From the NCBI RefSeq assembly GCF_000350525.1, contig NZ_AOCN01000015.1, positions 186,001 to 250,000 on the forward strand: DNA of 64,000 nucleotides. Reading direction: 5' to 3'. Numbering within the stretch: position 1 is the stretch's first letter; every line of letters begins with the position of its first letter. The position numbers and the translations under genes are program-made. Source of the stretch: Leucobacter salsicius M1-8 (GTDB taxonomy: Bacteria > Actinomycetota > Actinomycetes > Actinomycetales > Microbacteriaceae). Under the pieces are notes generated by a model. The model saw only the letters and a program-made list of their open reading frames with translations. It did not search any database and had not been told where the DNA came from. This document shows positions 31,544 through 37,800 of this stretch, in pieces.

Positions 31544-32323
31544 CTACGAGACGGTCGTGATTGCGGCGATGGGGTCGGTGGTCGGTGCACCGCTGGGCGA
31601 TCCGCCAGCCGCCTCAACGGTCAGTGCGACCACGTCTCCGGGACGGAAGCCATCGAGCACCGCCGGCTCATCATCCGGCGCGAGCACGCCCACAGAGATG
31701 GGAGTTTCGCCCCTCACGAGCCACACCTCAACGTCTTTATCGTCCGCCAACTTCGGAAGCTGCTCAGCCACGAGTACGGCGCGATCGAGTTCGTCGGACC
31801 AGTGCAGTGTCGCGTTGCCGCCGCCAGAAACCTGAACGGTTTGCTCCTGGGCGTCGCTTGCCTGGGACACTTCGGTGAGGGCCACATTTGCGAGGCTCGG
31901 GCCTGGCCCGAAAAGCTGCGGCCCCAGTGTGACGGCAGTCAACACGGCCACCGACGCCGCAAGCGCGAACGCTCCTACCCAGAGGGCGCGCCGGCGTGCC
32001 CTCGGCGCACGAGACTTGTGGTCGACGGGCGCTGAGAGCGATGCAGACACTACGGGTGGAGCGAGCTCAGCAGCCGGTGAACCACCGGCGGGCTGCTGCG
32101 ACATATTGCCGATCAGTTCGAGGAGATTGGCTCGCACGCTCGGGGCGGGGGTCGCGTTGGGCGAGGCGTCGCCAATGGTTGCGGCGGCCTCGAGATCCTC
32201 GTCGACGATGAGCTGCCACTCGGGGTGTGCCACGAGCGCGTGAGCGAAGGCGATCTCGTCCTCGGGGCTGAGCGCGTGCAGCGCGTGGCCAGCTGAGAGC
32301 TGCCGAAAATCTTGGAGATTCAT
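31544..32323 (-). CDS. rskA: Anti-sigma factor RskA (membrane anti-SigK)
   Basis: 259 residues. The cytosolic N-terminal domain (about 1-80; 'RQLSAGHALHALSPEDEIAF') is the RskA-type anti-sigma domain that binds region 2/4 of an ECF sigma factor. One transmembrane helix is at about 113-133. The outer C-terminal domain ('ATLHWSDELDRAVLVAEQLP', 'DVEVWLVRGETPISVGVL') is the RskA/anti-sigma-K fold. No zinc-binding HxxxCxxC is present, as expected for this class. The start overlaps the sigK stop by four bases, fixing the pairing. Regulated proteolysis in the membrane should release SigK; the signal is unknown. Confidence 0.92.
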   Translation of the reverse strand: MNLQDFRQLSAGHALHALSPEDEIAFAHALVAHPEWQLIVDEDLEAAATIGDASPNATPAPSVRANLLELIGNMSQQPAGGSPAAELAPPVVSASLSAPVDHKSRAPRARRRALWVGAFALAASVAVLTAVTLGPQLFGPGPSLANVALTEVSQASDAQEQTVQVSGGGNATLHWSDELDRAVLVAEQLPKLADDKDVEVWLVRGETPISVGVLAPDDEPAVLDGFRPGDVVALTVEAAGGSPSGAPTTDPIAAITTVS

Positions 32324-32919
32324 GATGCTCCCTCCATGGTCACGCGCAGTCGAGACAGGCCGTCTCGCATGCGCGTCTTGATCGTTCCGAGCGGGGCGCC
32401 AAGCAACACTGCGATTTCTTGCTGGGTGTACCCGCCAAAGTAGGCCAGCATGAGTGGTTCACGTTGCACCTCGGGGAGGAGCTGAAGCGCTTCCGCAGCT
32501 TCGGTGCCGTCGACCAGCAGTTCGACGTGCTCTTCAACTGGAACCGGAGCTGCGTACAGCTCGCGGAGCCCGGCACGCATGTCGCGCCCCGCGCTGGCCT
32601 GGGCTGCACGCACCCTGTCAACAGATCGGCGATGCGCCATGGTCAAGACCCAGGTACGTGCGCTGCCTCGCTCGGGCGAATACGAGGTAGCCCGCTGCCA
32701 GACCTCAAGAAACACCTCTTGCAGCACTTCCTCACTCTGCGCATGGTCGACGAGCACACGCTTGATGAGGCCGAACGCTCTTGCCGACAGCATGTCGTAG
32801 AGCGACGCGAATGCCCGCTGGTCTCCCTCTGCCACCCTGACGAGGGCACCGTCGGCAGGGTCAACGCCTGTCCCGTCCTCGGGAATGTCGCAGCCGTCGA
32901 TCACCATCTCCCTCAGCAT
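32320..32919 (-). CDS. sigK: ECF RNA polymerase sigma factor SigK
   Basis: 199 residues with the two ECF domains. Sigma region 2 is at about 35-105 ('FASLYDMLSARAFGLIKRVL', 'EEVLQEVFLEVWQRA', 'RTWVLTMAHRRSVDRVR'). Region 4 is at about 140-190 ('LPEVQREPLMLAYFGGYTQQ', 'IAVLLGAPLGTIKTRMRDGL'), the helix-turn-helix for the -35 element. Adjacency to an RskA protein, DipZ and an MPT83-like protein makes SigK the best name. Only one Cys (Cys10) is present, whereas mycobacterial SigK has a disulfide pair. It lies 42 bp after dipZ on the same strand and is probably co-transcribed with it. Confidence 0.93.
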   Translation of the reverse strand: MLREMVIDGCDIPEDGTGVDPADGALVRVAEGDQRAFASLYDMLSARAFGLIKRVLVDHAQSEEVLQEVFLEVWQRATSYSPERGSARTWVLTMAHRRSVDRVRAAQASAGRDMRAGLRELYAAPVPVEEHVELLVDGTEAAEALQLLPEVQREPLMLAYFGGYTQQEIAVLLGAPLGTIKTRMRDGLSRLRVTMEGAS

Positions 32920-32961
32920 GCCGTACTCACCCGCTTTCCGCGTCTTCTTGGCAGGAGTTTC

Positions 32962-34683
32962 TTACCCAAAGGTGAATGAATACACTTCCACCCCCGCGGG
33001 CACCTCGAGTTCGAGCAGTCCGGCTGTAGGCGATCCGGATCCCAGCAAGGAGTAGGAACGGGGAGTGCCTGAGACCTCGACGGTGCGAGCGCCAGAGTCG
33101 TCGCGCACTTTAAGCTGGCCCTCGCCCGCGACCACCACGCGCACCTCAGTGGCGCGGTAGCTCAGGCTGATTGTTGCAGAGCCTGCTGGCGCGGTCGGTG
33201 TCGCGAACTGGCTTTGGATATTCCACTCGCCCTTGAGCGCAAAGGTGTCTTCGGGCTGGGCCGAAGGGAGAGAGAAGCGCCGCTCACCCGCACCGTAGGC
33301 GCCGGGGCCGGCGAAGTTCACGTCCTTTGCGTAGCCGAGAAACGTCTCGCGGGTGGTTGAACCGACCTCGGGGGTCGTGTCCTTCGTGTCGGTGCTCGCT
33401 GGGAGCTTCGTGCCGGGGTTCGCGTCTTGCAACAGCTCGCGAATCATGCGCTCAGTGGCCTCGTAGTTGCCCTCGCCGAACGAGATGTGCCGCACGATGC
33501 CCTGAGCATCGATCAGGTAGTGCGCGGGCCAGTAGCGGTTGCGGTAGTTGGTCCAGGTAGAAAGCGAGTTGTCGAGCGCGACGGGGTACTCAATTCCGAA
33601 CCCGCGGGCCGCGTCTGCGACGTTCTGCGCGTTCTTCTCGAATGGATACTCGGGGGAGTGGACGCCGATCACCTGGAGCCCGGCGTCGCGGTAGGCGCGA
33701 TCCCACGCAACAACGTGGGGGATCGACCGCTGACAGTTGATGCACGAGTAGGCCCAGAAATCGATCAGCACGACTTGGCCGCGCAGCTCCGTGAGATCTA
33801 CGGCTTCGCCGCCCGGGGTATTCAGCCACCCATCTATGCCGCGAATGCTGGGGGCGGTGCCACAGCTCTCAAGCTCGGTGGCACCGTTTGTGCACTGGTC
33901 GAGTTCACGGTTCTCGTCGGTGACGAGGCCGCCGAGATCGAGGGCCCGCTTGGCAGAATCGCTCGTGGCAAGATCCTGCTGCAGCCCCGCGGTGTAGTCG
34001 GGAATCAGTCGCTGGATCGCCTGTGGCACATTGAAAGCGAGGCCGACTGCGAGCGCGAGCAGCGCGATCGCGGCGGTGATCCGGATCCCGCGCTCGCGCT
34101 TGCGAAACGCGCGCAACCGCTCGGTGAGCCCGCGGCCAGCGAGCGCGAATGCGAGCAGCGGCAGCGCGACGCCGATGGCGAATGAGACGGTGAGCGTGAT
34201 GGTGCCGACGCCAATCGAGCCGGTGGAGCCAGCCACGATGATGGCCGCGAGCACTGGCCCGGCGCAGGGCACGAAGACCGCGCCGAGGGCGAGCCCCATC
34301 CCAAATCCGTTGCCCTTCTCGTTGACCTTGCGGCGGGGTAACCATTGGAACGGGCGCTCCAGCAGCTGCTCGACGCGGGGAAACAACATGCCAACACCGA
34401 TCGCGACGAGCACGGCGACGCCCGCCCAGCGGATCGCGTCCTGGGGCAACGAGAAGAATCCGAGCACGATCGACCCGACCAGGGTCACCGCGGTGAAACT
34501 CACCACCAGCCCCGCGATGACGAAGTAGGGGCGGCTGCGCGGAGCCGGAATGACCTCGGGGCTTTCTCCAATGCGGGCGGACTGCGCGCCCGCGGTCAGA
34601 AAAATGACCGGCAGCACCGGCAAAATGCACGGCGAAATGCCGGTAATGAGCCCGCCCAGCAGGCCGATGAGCACTGTATCCAT
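32962..34683 (-). CDS. dipZ: DipZ: CcdA-type membrane protein fused to a thioredoxin-like domain
   Basis: 573 residues in three parts. The CcdA/DsbD-like membrane domain (1-235) has its redox Cys pair at Cys19 ('ISPCILPVLP') and Cys140 ('VFVPCAGPVLAA'). The TlpA-like thioredoxin domain (about 275-420) has 'FWAYSCINCQRSIPH' with CxxC at 314-317. The C-terminal beta domain (about 435-573) is the DipZ tail. Two more Cys (264, 274) precede the thioredoxin fold. Electrons should pass from cytosolic thioredoxin through the membrane to extracytoplasmic thiols. The start at 34683 has GAGGAGG upstream; longer in-frame sequence upstream runs through the divergent promoter region and is not conserved. 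A SigK-like promoter lies 24 bp upstream. Confidence 0.93.
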   Translation of the reverse strand: MDTVLIGLLGGLITGISPCILPVLPVIFLTAGAQSARIGESPEVIPAPRSRPYFVIAGLVVSFTAVTLVGSIVLGFFSLPQDAIRWAGVAVLVAIGVGMLFPRVEQLLERPFQWLPRRKVNEKGNGFGMGLALGAVFVPCAGPVLAAIIVAGSTGSIGVGTITLTVSFAIGVALPLLAFALAGRGLTERLRAFRKRERGIRITAAIALLALAVGLAFNVPQAIQRLIPDYTAGLQQDLATSDSAKRALDLGGLVTDENRELDQCTNGATELESCGTAPSIRGIDGWLNTPGGEAVDLTELRGQVVLIDFWAYSCINCQRSIPHVVAWDRAYRDAGLQVIGVHSPEYPFEKNAQNVADAARGFGIEYPVALDNSLSTWTNYRNRYWPAHYLIDAQGIVRHISFGEGNYEATERMIRELLQDANPGTKLPASTDTKDTTPEVGSTTRETFLGYAKDVNFAGPGAYGAGERRFSLPSAQPEDTFALKGEWNIQSQFATPTAPAGSATISLSYRATEVRVVVAGEGQLKVRDDSGARTVEVSGTPRSYSLLGSGSPTAGLLELEVPAGVEVYSFTFG

Positions 34684-34706
34684 GGTGCCTCCTCTTGTTG
34701 CGAGGT

Positions 34707-34733
34707 ATTCGGAGCGGCAAGCGATTTGGATTG
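34707..34733 (-). promoter_or_regulatory. Putative SigK promoter for dipZ-sigK-rskA
   Basis: On the minus strand CAATCC (34728-34733) is followed by a 15-bp spacer and CCGAAT (34707-34712), then 23 bp to the dipZ ATG. The same element, same spacing, occurs on the plus strand at 34770-34796. From memory, the mycobacterial SigK consensus is close to CCATCC / CCGAAT; that resemblance is recalled, not checked. Confidence 0.75.
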
Positions 34734-34769
34734 CCGGGATACCGTGCCAAAAAAATTTCTCAGAACATG

Positions 34770-34796
34770 CAATCCGATTTCGTGAGGGCTCCGAAT
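34770..34796 (+). promoter_or_regulatory. Putative SigK promoter for the fasciclin lipoprotein gene
   Basis: CAATCC (34770-34775), 15-bp spacer, CCGAAT (34791-34796), 47 bp before the ATG at 34844. It is a copy of the element driving dipZ on the other strand. The spacers differ in sequence, which argues that the two hexamers are what is conserved. Confidence 0.75.
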
Positions 34797-34843
34797 GAGA
34801 GTTAAGCCGCGGGACACCGTGGTTCCACAATGAGGAGGACATC

Positions 34844-35530
34844 ATGACTACCACCCGCAAGATGATCGGCGCGGCCTTCGCTTTGACGTTCGCAGGAGCA
34901 GTTGCGTTGACTGGCTGCTCGATGGATGCGCCCGCCGATGAGGGAACGAAGCAATCCCAGAATGATGCGGCAGCTGAATCAACGGCGCCCCAGGAAACGC
35001 CTGAGATGGACGGCGCCATGGCCGATCCTGCCGCAAACCTTGTCGGCTCGGGCTGCGCCGCCTACGCAGAGGCCGTGCCCACCGGTGACGGCTCGATCCA
35101 GGGCATGTCACAGGATCCCGTCGCGGTCGCCGCGTCGAATAACCCGATGCTCACGACGCTGGTCACGGCGGTGAGCGGCAAGCTGAACCCCGATGTGAAC
35201 CTAGTCGACACCCTCAACGGCAGCGAGTTCACGGTGTTTGCGCCGGTAGACGATGCCTTTGCCAAGATTGATGCCGCAACCATCGACACACTGAAGACCG
35301 ATAGCGACCTGCTGTCGAAGATCCTCACCTACCACGTGGTACCCGGCCAGATCGAGCCCGCTGACATCGCGGGCAGCCACGACACGGTCGAAGGCGCTGC
35401 GCTCGAGGTGACCGGATCGGGCGACAACCTGAAGGTCAATGGCGCGAACGTGGTGTGTGGCGGAGTGCAGACTGCAAACGCTGTGGTGTACCTCGTCGAC
35501 ACGGTACTGATGCCGCCGGCAGGCCAGTAG
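34844..35530 (+). CDS. Fasciclin-domain lipoprotein, MPT83/MPT70-like
   Basis: A lipoprotein of 228 residues with lipobox ALTGC (Cys25), then a Glu/Asp/Ala-rich linker to about residue 65. One fasciclin (FAS1) domain fills the rest. The match to mycobacterial MPT70/MPT83 is strong and runs through the whole domain: '[20 protein letters not shown]', '[14 protein letters not shown]', '[14 protein letters not shown]', '[10 protein letters not shown]', '[18 protein letters not shown]' and 'VLMPPA'. The two Cys that form a disulfide in MPT70 are present (GSGCAAY and VVCGGV), and may be a DipZ substrate. GGAGG lies just before the ATG. Divergent from dipZ-sigK-rskA, with its own SigK-like promoter. 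Confidence 0.95.
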
Positions 35531-35559
35531 CGCAACAAGACTTGAGCCCCCCATCAAGC

Positions 35560-35605
35560 AGCCGAGGGCGGTGCACCATCTCAGGATGGTGCACCGCCCT
35601 CGGCT
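35560..35605. terminator. Bidirectional terminator, fasciclin gene / MMPL gene
   Basis: A perfect 21-bp stem (35560-35580 with 35585-35605) with a TCAG loop sits between convergent stops. It is one of the longest perfect stems in the window. Confidence 0.8.
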
Positions 35606-35613
35606 AGTTGTAG

Positions 35614-37800
35614 CTACTCCTTGCCTTGCGCCAGCTTGGACGGCCACCAAATCTTGCGCCCAATGTCGGTTGCGAGTGCGGGCACGAGCAGCGAGCGCAC
35701 GATGAACGTGTCGAGCAGCACACCGAATGCGACGATGAACGCGATCTGCGCGAGGAACAGGATTGGAATCACGGCGAGGGCCGCAAACGTCGCCGCGAGT
35801 ACCAGGCCGGCGGAGGTAATGACGCCACCGGTAATGGAGAGCCCGCGCGCAATGCCCTCGCGCGTGCCGTGTGCGATCGACTCTTCGCGCACTCGGGTCA
35901 TCAAGAAAATGTTGTAGTCAATGCCGAGGGCGACGAGGAAGACGAAGCCGTACAGCGGCACGGCTGGGTCTGCACCGGGGAAGTCGAAGACGTGATTGAA
36001 CACGAGCGCGGCTACGCCGAGCGCGGTACCGAACGACAGGACGGTCGTGGCAATCAGGATGATCGGGGCCAGAATCGACCGCAGCAGCACCATCAGAATC
36101 AGCAGGATCACGAGGAGCACCACGGGAATGATGAGCGTGCGGTCGTGGATCGAGGCGTCGTTCGTGTCGACAGCGGTCGCCGTCACTCCTCCCACGAGCG
36201 CGCTCGTGCCCGCGAGTTCGCTCCGGATCGAGCGCACCGTTTGCTCCGCCGCATCTGAGTCTGCGGCGTCAGTGAGGGTCGCCTGCAGCAGCACGTCTCC
36301 TCGCGACACCGTGGGTGCGGGGGCTGGGGTCCCAGGAGGTCCGAGCGGTTGCACGCCGTCGGCGGTGACCGGGGCGGTGCCGCTGGGGGAGTCGGTCGCA
36401 ACGACGGTGACGCTGTCGACACCCTGGGTGTCGATGAGGGTTTGAGCTGCCCGCTGCAGATCGGCTTCGGGGGTGAGCACGTACACCGGGCTACCTGATC
36501 CGCCGGGGAAGTGCTCGCCGAGCGCCTTCTGGCCGTCGCGTGCCTCGCTCGCACCGAGCACCAGATCTGACTGCGGTACGCCCGACGCGTCGAGCTGGCT
36601 CGCACCAAACATGCCCAGGAGCAGCACGAGTGCCGTGACGATCCAGATCGGGCGCGGGCGCTCGCGAATGCGCTTGGCCAGGCGGGCCCATACGCCCCTG
36701 GGCATCCCGTGCTCTGCGGCCACGGCCTCGGGTTCGTAGTGGGGGCGCTTGGGCCAGAACGCCGCACGCCCAAACGCGAACAGGATCGCGGGCAGCAGCG
36801 TGAGTGCCGCGAGCATCGCGAACACGATGCCCACCGAGGCGACGGGGCCGAGTGAGCTGTTGGATTTGAGATCTGACAACAGCAGGCACAGCAGGCCCGC
36901 GATGACCGTACCGCCAGAGGCGAGGATCGGCTCGAATGAGCCACGAATGGCCTGTTTCGTTGCGGTACCGCGATCCTGCGTGATGCGTAGCTGCTCACGG
37001 AAACGAGAGACATAGAGCAGCGAGTAGTCGGTGGCGGCACCGATCACCAGAATGAAGAGAATGCCCTGGGTCTGGCCTGAGAGCATGAAGAGCCCCCACT
37101 TCGCGAGCCACCAGTTGACGAGTAGTGCAACCGTGAGTGCCATGAGGCTCGTGGTGAGGACCGCTACCGGAAGCAACAGGGAGCGGTAGACCACGATCAG
37201 AATGATGAAGACCGCGAGCAGGGCGACGCCCAGCAGAATTCCGTCAATGCCCGAGAACCCGTTCACGAGGTCGGCGGTGAAGCCAGCGGGGCCGGTGACA
37301 TACACCTGCACGCCGTCGGGGGCGGCCGCGCGTAGCTCGTCACCGATGGCGGTGGTAGCCTCGCGAATCGTGTCCTTGCCCTCGATAGGCACGAACGCCT
37401 GCGCCGCCTTGCCGTCCTCAGAGGGAATCAGGGGTGAGATATCGGTCGAGACGTTGGGCACCGACTGAGGCAGTGCGGCAACCGTGTCGGACAGCCGCGT
37501 GAGCTGCTCGGGCGTGAGCTTCTCGTCGCCCGTGATGACGACGACCGCGGGGATCGCTTCGGAATCGCGAAAGTCCGAGAGCCGTTCTTGCACCTGGGTA
37601 GCGTCGGCTGAGCTCGGTAGGTAAGCGGTCTGGTCGTTTGACGACACCTCGCTGATCTTGCCGAAGTAGGGGCCGCCCACGCTCCCCGCACCCACCCACA
37701 GGAGTATGAGTAGGGCAGGAATCAGTATACGGGCCCAGCGCCGACGTCTTGAGTTCGCGTGTTGTGGTGCAGCCTGAGCGGTTGCGGGATCCGGATTCAT
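35614..37800 (-). CDS. MMPL/RND family transporter
   Basis: A 728-residue protein with the duplicated RND layout: a helix near residue 30, an outer domain (about 50-185), a block of five or six helices (about 190-360), a second helix and outer domain (about 390-540), and a final helix block (about 545-710). The conserved 'GAATDYSLLYVSRFREQL' and 'LGIDYNIFLMTRVREE' (with the proton-relay Asp-Tyr pairs) are diagnostic of the YdfJ/MmpL branch. It should use the proton gradient to export lipids or drugs. It is transcribed away from the marR gene, and an AT-rich region with an inverted repeat lies between, so MarR control is likely. Confidence 0.9.
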   Translation of the reverse strand: MNPDPATAQAAPQHANSRRRRWARILIPALLILLWVGAGSVGGPYFGKISEVSSNDQTAYLPSSADATQVQERLSDFRDSEAIPAVVVITGDEKLTPEQLTRLSDTVAALPQSVPNVSTDISPLIPSEDGKAAQAFVPIEGKDTIREATTAIGDELRAAAPDGVQVYVTGPAGFTADLVNGFSGIDGILLGVALLAVFIILIVVYRSLLLPVAVLTTSLMALTVALLVNWWLAKWGLFMLSGQTQGILFILVIGAATDYSLLYVSRFREQLRITQDRGTATKQAIRGSFEPILASGGTVIAGLLCLLLSDLKSNSSLGPVASVGIVFAMLAALTLLPAILFAFGRAAFWPKRPHYEPEAVAAEHGMPRGVWARLAKRIRERPRPIWIVTALVLLLGMFGASQLDASGVPQSDLVLGASEARDGQKALGEHFPGGSGSPVYVLTPEADLQRAAQTLIDTQGVDSVTVVATDSPSGTAPVTADGVQPLGPPGTPAPAPTVSRGDVLLQATLTDAADSDAAEQTVRSIRSELAGTSALVGGVTATAVDTNDASIHDRTLIIPVVLLVILLILMVLLRSILAPIILIATTVLSFGTALGVAALVFNHVFDFPGADPAVPLYGFVFLVALGIDYNIFLMTRVREESIAHGTREGIARGLSITGGVITSAGLVLAATFAALAVIPILFLAQIAFIVAFGVLLDTFIVRSLLVPALATDIGRKIWWPSKLAQGKE

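Follow-up and report, generated by a model that had tools for sequence, protein, structure and literature searches.

The DNA analysed here is a stretch of 64,000 nucleotides (referred to as the window) from Leucobacter salsicius M1-8, a member of the Microbacteriaceae with a genome of 3.19 Mb, and corresponds to positions 186001-250000 of contig NZ_AOCN01000015.1. At 31544..35530 it carries a gene for a fasciclin (FAS1) lipoprotein on the plus strand, placed head-to-head with dipZ, sigK and rskA on the minus strand. As judged from the sequence, this block most probably has the regulatory architecture of an autoregulated envelope-stress module controlled by the extracytoplasmic function (ECF) sigma factor SigK and its regulator RskA, with an output that can be described only tentatively. 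The genes and sites of the block are as follows (positions of the window):

31544..32323, minus strand: rskA, anti-sigma factor (Pfam RskA_C, 6.8e-18)
32320..32919, minus strand: sigK, SigK-type ECF sigma factor (NCBIfam SigK; structure 4nqw)
32962..34683, minus strand: dipZ (Pfam DsbD_TM, redoxin and Thioredoxin_10; DipZ ectodomain structure, 5e-114)
34707..34733, minus strand: SigK-type promoter toward dipZ-sigK-rskA, CAATCC-N15-CCGAAT (motif match)
34770..34796, plus strand: SigK-type promoter toward FAS1, CAATCC-N15-CCGAAT (motif match)
34844..35530, plus strand: MPT70/MPT83-type FAS1 lipoprotein (Pfam Fasciclin, 5.6e-29; 1nyo, 3e-65)
34919..35044, plus strand: low-complexity tether of 42 residues with 3 Met (7%), between the lipid anchor and the FAS1 domain

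All four genes, proposed by the first-pass annotation, were confirmed by Pfam, NCBIfam and structure matches. The best NCBIfam model for the sigma factor was SigK (224.9 bits, the next model reaching 117.9), and its closest solved structure was SigK 4nqw (3e-39). RskA exceeded the cut-off of the NCBIfam anti-sigma factor model (130 versus 100 bits), has a single membrane helix at approximately residues 111-133 (by eye) with the RskA_C domain outside, and contains no cysteine; it matched no solved structure at E 0.001. According to the Pfam and PDB matches, DipZ comprises all three expected parts in one chain: a CcdA-type membrane part, a thioredoxin-like domain with a CxxC motif (C314/C317) and a C-terminal thioredoxin-associated domain. 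Its raw open reading frame extends to 35019, and an ATG with an upstream ribosome-binding-like sequence is found at 34683 (by eye). The best solved structure for the FAS1 protein was MPT70 (1nyo), aligned over residues 65-226 including the Cys71/Cys205 pair, which bears out its assignment to the MPT70/MPT83 type; the lipobox cysteine is Cys25 (by eye and column count). Since the gap between dipZ and sigK is 42 bases and sigK overlaps rskA by 4 bases, the three minus-strand genes probably form one operon. The genome contains one FAS1 match and one RskA_C match, both in the block.

The 160-base gap between FAS1 and dipZ holds two inverted copies of the SigK-type motif, each just 5' of an initiation codon with a ribosome-binding-like sequence (by eye). 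These are the only two sites of the strict motif in the whole genome. A looser motif gave five sites, and the three beyond the gap pair were rejected as promoters, being within or antisense to probable reading frames. Among 61 divergent FAS1/dipZ gaps, the motif with at most one mismatch was found toward FAS1 in 59/61 and toward dipZ in 52/61, both being present in 52/61; the exact motif occurred toward FAS1 in 21, toward dipZ in 32 and in both directions in 15. (L and G numbers are our handles for the loci and genomes compared; L105 and L106, duplicates of L072 and L057, were excluded from the gap count, the trees and the cysteine and tether counts.) In 40 mononucleotide shuffles of the same gaps the means were 1.7 (FAS1) and 1.0 (dipZ) with maxima of 4 and 4, while the reversed pattern gave 0 and 0 and the complement pattern 0 and 1. 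Mycobacterial FAS1-dipZ-FAS1 loci have C[AC]ATCC-N16-CGAAT sites, which in L113 and L203 stand at each of the three genes. SigK sites were reported to be highly conserved among Actinobacteria, and SigKs of other species to recognise the mpt70 promoter (PMC7509140). Because of the twin conserved motifs and this cross-species recognition, SigK is very likely to use both promoters of the gap and thereby to amplify itself, as the first-pass annotation supposed, in a block that holds the sole FAS1 and RskA_C matches of the genome.

In genomes lacking FAS1, 24/40 SigK loci had the motif no more than 500 bases 5' of the sigK match. In the 150 family genomes 130 strict sites were listed, of which 24 lie within 4 kb of FAS1 or DipZ, a further 15 within 4 kb of RskA_C and the other 91 far from these genes. 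The distant sites are distributed at about equal rates among genomes with RskA_C (62 sites in 97 genomes) and without it (29 in 53), and are therefore considered background. In many relatives the motif also recurs within the 5' portion of the sigK reading frame itself (L069:5941, L080:5080, L062:9078, L063:1281, L092:8057, L202:7971 and others), which may be a coding coincidence or an internal promoter.

The distribution of the block was surveyed, as the first-pass annotation had suggested, in samples of 150 genomes of the family, 54 of the genus and 396 of the phylum, with DipZ scored by Thioredoxin_10, and co-occurrence of the four families proved strong in both genus and family. In the family, DipZ was present in 32 copies in 31 genomes, FAS1 in 64 matches in 56 genomes and RskA_C in 97 genomes. 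A FAS1 gene lies within 10 kb of 27/32 DipZ copies, on the opposite strand in 27/27 cases, and for 24/27 of these copies RskA_C, too, is no more than 10 kb away (on the dipZ strand in 19, on the opposite one in 5), an arrangement that chance does not explain. Counted by genome, both FAS1 and DipZ occur in 27, FAS1 only in 29, DipZ only in 4 and neither in 90 (Fisher 2e-10, uncorrected for kinship). Within the genus the association is nearly all-or-none: FAS1 was found in 27 genomes, and DipZ matched in 26/27 of these and in 0/27 of the others (Fisher 3e-14, also uncorrected for kinship), 25 of the matches being above the cut-off and one a fragment (G587). The contiguous four-gene order is present in 24/27 FAS1 genomes of the genus (22, the window and L071). 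In G553, which has this order, the matched frame of dipZ is open over its C-terminal part only; in G564, FAS1 and dipZ are approximately 8 kb apart and no SigK was present in the stretch examined. In G014 and its sister G587 (SigK 93.5% identical), dipZ is reduced to scraps, with the promoter, sigK, rskA and FAS1 retained; retention of the promoter is expected if the dipZ promoter is the promoter of the sigK operon.

Across the phylum sample DipZ was detected in 37 genomes, and among the FAS1 matches listed, those within 10 kb of DipZ belonged to the window and to G106, G489 and G299, of which G299 shows the FAS1-dipZ-FAS1 order of mycobacteria. The best 80 named DipZ loci include the head-to-head FAS1-dipZ arrangement in Microbacterium, Mycetocola, Humibacter, Demequina, Sinomonas and another member of the Micrococcaceae, as well as in Lentzea, Amycolatopsis and Crossiella. 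Elsewhere in the family, sigK-rskA is often situated beside genes resembling a phosphate-transport (pst) operon, with FAS1/dipZ at another locus or missing; the window has no pst-type neighbourhood around sigK-rskA. The contiguous form, proposed by the first-pass annotation as perhaps ancestral, occurs in several families, for example in Lentzea (RskA not in the stretch examined) and Mycobacterium sp. ACS4054 (sigK-rskA-FAS1-dipZ-FAS1 as one run), but separation is frequent within the family, and the block may be either ancestral or reassembled. The pst-like neighbours, often along with a protein of approximately 210 residues, were seen beside sigK-rskA in L039, L050, L051, L065, L075, L076, L088-L097, L098, L102, L109 and L124. 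A second, diverged FAS1 and RskA_C pair was observed at L040:6185-6829 and L086:8053-8877, with FAS1 nearby (G002:C5, G149:C1), and FAS1 with RskA_C also occurs at G025:C2, G102:C3 and G086:C14. The ECF sigma factor of this pair, read in L040 and L086, is about 31% identical to the SigK of the window, and the pair looks like a parallel system in some members of the family.

In the SigK tree (63 rows), the window SigK grouped with SigKs of its genus, of G047 and of Microbacterium, together with long-branch Actinomycetaceae (97/100), and a position outside the SigK clade, which would have spoken against the first-pass annotation, was not found in this tree, in which the split from the three paralogues that fall outside is weak. 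Another clade (97/89) is formed by the SigKs of Mycobacterium, Gordonia, Lentzea and Streptomyces that possess the cysteine pair discussed below, and includes a diverged Crossiella row. In the DipZ tree (76 rows, quick method), FAS1 linkage required 3 state changes compared with 24 in shuffles.

Several observations weigh against an autoregulated SigK/RskA module. The SigK score is 1.1 bits below the NCBIfam SigK cut-off of 226; the split of the SigK tree from paralogues has support of 93/68 with only 3 clear paralogues and long branches flagged; the motif is absent toward FAS1 in 2/61 gaps and toward dipZ in 9/61, and absent before sigK in 16/40 SigK loci of FAS1-less genomes. Further SigK targets are also possible via motif variants, CCATCC and CGAAC having been scanned in the window. 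The claim that the regulon is complete in this one locus is likely, given that both strict sites, the one FAS1 and the one RskA_C match are here.

Clues to the output come from loci in which one component is exchanged for another. Seven of the loci examined contain dipZ and SigK without FAS1, and in 4/7 of them (L118, L132, L126, L136) a small methionine-rich lipoprotein is encoded on the divergent strand; a protein of the same kind is encoded in L068:

L118:7542-7781, minus strand: Met-rich lipoprotein of Actinomyces oricola, facing dipZ, with SigK-type motif
L132:7519-7809, minus strand: Met-rich lipoprotein of Schaalia cardiffensis, facing dipZ, with SigK-type motif
L126:7429-7824, minus strand: Met-rich lipoprotein of Peptidiphaga gingivicola, facing dipZ, no SigK-type motif
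L136:6094-6384, minus strand: Met-rich lipoprotein of Gordonia effusa, facing sigK, with SigK-type motif
L068:8969-9241, minus strand: Met-rich lipoprotein

Their repeats are of the forms MSDxDK, MKDGDK and PMSxxM. The lipoprotein gene of L068 (genome G088) immediately precedes a distant dipZ and lies on its strand; this genome is without an RskA_C match, and no SigK was found in the 15 kb stretch, the sole region searched. The other three of the seven loci (L114, L116, L139), from one mycobacterial group, have no Met-rich lipoprotein, and their other small Met-rich frames are probably not genes. A filter requiring a lipobox and a Met content of 8% or more over the 60 residues that follow, which was set after the candidates had been seen and misses the L068/G088 protein, gave 15 matches in 217 stretches (3.17 Mb), namely 11 MPT83-type FAS1 proteins and 4 Met-rich lipoproteins. 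As a general substitute for FAS1 the Met-rich lipoprotein was rejected, since none was found at the SigK loci (0/40) examined in 40 of the 48 genomes of the family with RskA_C and without FAS1.

The tethers of MPT83-type proteins (n=42) contain 6.5% Met, compared with 1.4% in 45 other lipoprotein-like N-termini of the same loci, 3 Met-rich lipoproteins among them (p = 8e-9). Over the 93/103 FAS1 tethers that could be parsed (10/103 could not), Met amounts to 5.6-7.1% across three taxonomic groups, with at least 2 Met in 82/93, whereas the rest of the protein has 2.4%. Tethers from stretches with dipZ (6.6%, n=68) do not differ from those without it (7.6%, n=25; p = 0.15), and tether and DipZ are therefore not coupled in that way. 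DipZ, too, is exchanged: in three dipZ-less loci the gene head-to-head with FAS1 encodes a molybdoenzyme of the sulfite-oxidase family that has an additional N-terminal part:

L042:8175-9821, plus strand: sulfite-oxidase-family molybdoenzyme
L056:8108-9670, plus strand: sulfite-oxidase-family molybdoenzyme
L082:5258-7171, minus strand: sulfite-oxidase-family molybdoenzyme

A SigK-type motif is directed toward the enzyme in L042, and in L082 only if the called start is too far upstream. The scores of all three enzymes are far below the MsrP, SorA and SoxC cut-offs. The Met-rich lipoprotein in the place of FAS1 and the Met enrichment of the MPT83-type tether are new findings for such loci; they resemble the oxidant scavengers MrpX and BcrX, whose function they may share.

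The module probably operates in the following way. At rest, membrane-bound RskA would hold SigK, until an extracytoplasmic signal releases the latter or makes it active; SigK would fire the two back-to-back promoters, producing the FAS1 lipoprotein in one direction and DipZ, SigK and RskA in the other, and so amplify both itself and its own regulator, while DipZ would move electrons from the cytoplasmic side to its external thioredoxin-like domain. Electron flow through DipZ is likely, and control through cleavage of RskA, by analogy with M. tuberculosis, for which it has been published, is somewhat favoured. RskA was described as both inhibitor and activator of SigK, and the activating signal of mycobacterial SigK as unknown (PMC7509140). 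Because Met-rich lipoproteins and redox enzymes swap into the same slots, the lipoprotein and the membrane reductase may serve the defence or repair of oxidised envelope components, a reading that we put forward tentatively. In a more specific and slightly more doubtful version of it, the module would scavenge and repair oxidised methionines and thiols of the actinobacterial envelope, with a sacrificial Met-studded tether on the MPT83-type lipoprotein, a Met-rich lipoprotein replacing the latter in Actinomycetaceae and Gordonia, and redox chemistry by DipZ or, in some relatives without dipZ, by the sulfite-oxidase-family enzyme. The redox-to-envelope pathway of the first-pass annotation survives in another form through the Met-rich lipoproteins and the sulfite-oxidase-type enzyme in the same slots, while its thiol form is weakened by the following observations.

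In the alignment with 4nqw (numbering offset applied), Ala144 and Thr194 of the window SigK stand at the positions of M. tuberculosis Cys133 and Cys183. These cysteines were reported in 94% of ECF18 and 56% of ECF19 members, and SigKs without them more often to be accompanied by an altered RskA (PMC7509140); in the window the pair is lacking, yet RskA is of full length. Among 85 SigKs (12 from outside the family), both cysteines are present in 8, the first only in 2 and neither in 75. The eight belong to four Mycobacterium, Gordonia, Lentzea, Streptomyces and one genome of the same order (L207). Within the family the pair occurs in 0/73 SigKs and neither cysteine in 71/73, so that a disulfide switch like the one in M. 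tuberculosis SigK cannot operate here in the described manner, and redox sensing by SigK through Cys133/Cys183 was rejected for the family. The two remaining sequences, L191 and L197, from the genus of the window, have a cysteine at the Cys133 position and none at that of Cys183. The cysteines of the other two proteins are under strong constraint: the FAS1 Cys71/Cys205 pair was found in 103/103 proteins, the DipZ CxxC in 109/109 and all six Cys positions of DipZ in 91/109.

This conservation, the very tight DipZ-FAS1 linkage and the role of DipZ in MPT83/MPT70 disulfides proposed in the literature (PMC9861118) would suit DipZ as a dedicated thiol-disulfide partner of the FAS1 pair, with SigK itself reading the redox state. 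The FAS1 pair, however, was kept in 29/29 copies without DipZ in the stretch examined, including those of the dipZ-deleted sisters; 27 of these 29 come from genomes without a full Thioredoxin_10 match (the exceptions being G564 and G523), and the pair therefore does not need DipZ. With the SigK pair missing throughout the family, and the lipobox cysteine being the only one in the Met-rich lipoproteins that replace FAS1 in L118, L126 and L132, this explanation seems rather unlikely, and the idea that the MPT83-like protein is a thiol client of DipZ keeps the conservation of the pair in its favour but is weakened as a whole. Copper or other metal handling in the envelope, by Met-rich segments together with DipZ-type thiol chemistry, is improbable. 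Met-rich stretches of the MxxM type bind copper in known proteins, and the lipoproteins of L118, L126, L132, L136 and L068 would fit, but the FAS1 tethers are just moderately Met-rich and no metal transporter was present among the neighbour-cluster representatives run against Pfam, several smaller clusters being left unidentified. That the clustering is an inherited neighbourhood with no functional link, as the frequent separation of sigK-rskA from FAS1/dipZ in the family might suggest, is hardly credible in view of the twin promoters in nearly all gaps, the near all-or-none block in the genus and the similar orders in other families.

A photo-oxidative signal (light or singlet oxygen), making the module a counterpart of RpoE/ChrR-type responses with fasciclin and photolyase, is possible, if on balance doubtful. 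The genes mpk83 and mpk70 of M. kansasii are light-induced, but its dipZ is not light-regulated (PMC9861118). The RpoE regulon of R. sphaeroides includes the singlet-oxygen-induced fasciclin RSP_1409 and the photolyase PhrA, and RpoE/ChrR of R. capsulatus resemble SigK/RskA; R. capsulatus itself has no fasciclin homologue (PMC7074977). A fasciclin of A. brasilense is under RpoE-ChrR control (PMC10949492, citing Dubey 2021); in the strain of that paper the fasciclin gene was not expressed. Both the window and G561 have a photolyase gene approximately 5 kb away from FAS1; such a gene also lies directly 3' of rskA in G096/L071, near the block in L053, L104 and L211, and perhaps in L110 (cluster only):

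L071:10295-11641: photolyase near the block
L194:11423-12712: photolyase near the block
L053:1754-3106: photolyase near the block
L104:12023-13393: photolyase near the block
L211:4089-5420: photolyase near the block

Over all 54 genomes of the genus, photolyase was found in 22/27 with FAS1 and 14/27 without (p = 0.04), but with good genomes only the ratio became 20/25 versus 13/20 (p = 0.32). Photolyase and FAS1 are within 10 kb in only 3/22 genus genomes having both (fragmented assemblies being scored as apart), and the photolyase of the window lacks a SigK-type motif. Between 35614 and 40743 of the window, MmpL, MarR and epimerase genes precede the photolyase, and the convergent FAS1 and MmpL-family genes are separated by what is probably a shared two-way transcription terminator:

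35560..35606, no strand: 21-bp stem (-64.6 kcal/mol for 35525-35620, z = -10.6)

The neighbours of SigK in M. tuberculosis include furan/cyclopropane fatty-acid genes; none were detected among the cluster representatives searched with Pfam, several smaller clusters being left unidentified.

The envelope-oxidation reading, if true in its scavenge-and-repair form, would assign a definite biochemical task to the SigK regulon of mycobacteria. In any case, a compact, near all-or-none block elsewhere in the actinobacteria makes this regulon testable outside tuberculosis bacteria, and the exchanges that occur in nature (a Met-rich lipoprotein in place of FAS1, a molybdoenzyme-type oxidoreductase in place of DipZ, loss of dipZ, SigK without the cysteines) show which parts are exchangeable and move the focus from SigK and MPT83 disulfides to the oxidation of envelope methionines.

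The literature searches listed no paper dealing with this block in the Microbacteriaceae, nor any on a Met-rich target of SigK. Leifsonia xyli belongs to the same family as the window genome. A paper on its anti-sigma K gene makes no mention of fasciclin in the portion available (PMC6323826). Among known systems, the minimal cassette mpt83-sigK-rskA has already been published (Veyrier 2008 as cited in PMC7509140) and is not new; the window has its three genes together, sigK beside rskA and a SigK-type site before the lipoprotein gene, but differs in having dipZ within the sigK operon and head-to-head with FAS1, and in combining a SigK without the Cys133/Cys183 pair with a full-length RskA. Priority for the dipZ-containing form is uncertain. 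The SigK regulon of the M. tuberculosis complex, as described in PMC10540498, shares the four protein families and the motif type, but comprises two loci and two FAS1 proteins (anchored and secreted) flanking dipZ, in place of one FAS1 in one divergent locus. The cskE-sigK-dipZ island of C. pseudotuberculosis also unites dipZ, sigK and an anti-sigma gene, with no FAS1 in the gene list given, unlike the window (PMC3078919). The same source, citing Veyrier 2008, regards full-length dipZ in Actinobacteria as exclusive to pathogens, which is contradicted by the DipZ matches in 31/150 genomes of the family. RpoE/ChrR with RSP_1409 is likewise an ECF-controlled oxidative-stress regulon with a fasciclin, but ChrR is a zinc anti-sigma factor, and DipZ does not appear in the passage with the regulon table (PMC7074977).

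Related systems are also known from hypochlorite defence. In Azospira, hypochlorite is scavenged by an ECF system that combines a secreted Met-rich protein with a reductase for methionine sulfoxide (SigF/NrsF-MrpX-YedY1; PMC5748585), and BcrS/AbcS-BcrXQP is induced by HOCl in another bacterium (PMC8315932, PMC10151825), PMC8315932 naming an MXKDX repeat protein; the Met-rich lipoproteins of L118, L132 and L126 look by eye like MXKDX-type repeats. The window block contains no MrpX-type Met-rich repeat protein, its FAS1 having a 3-Met tether and such a lipoprotein being found in L118, L126, L132 and L136, and no MsrP/MsrQ reductase gene. With these systems the SigK loci share an ECF/anti-sigma pair, a Met-rich protein and an envelope redox enzyme; they differ in that the sigma factors are others, DipZ or a sulfite-oxidase-family enzyme replaces MsrP, and the window carries FAS1.

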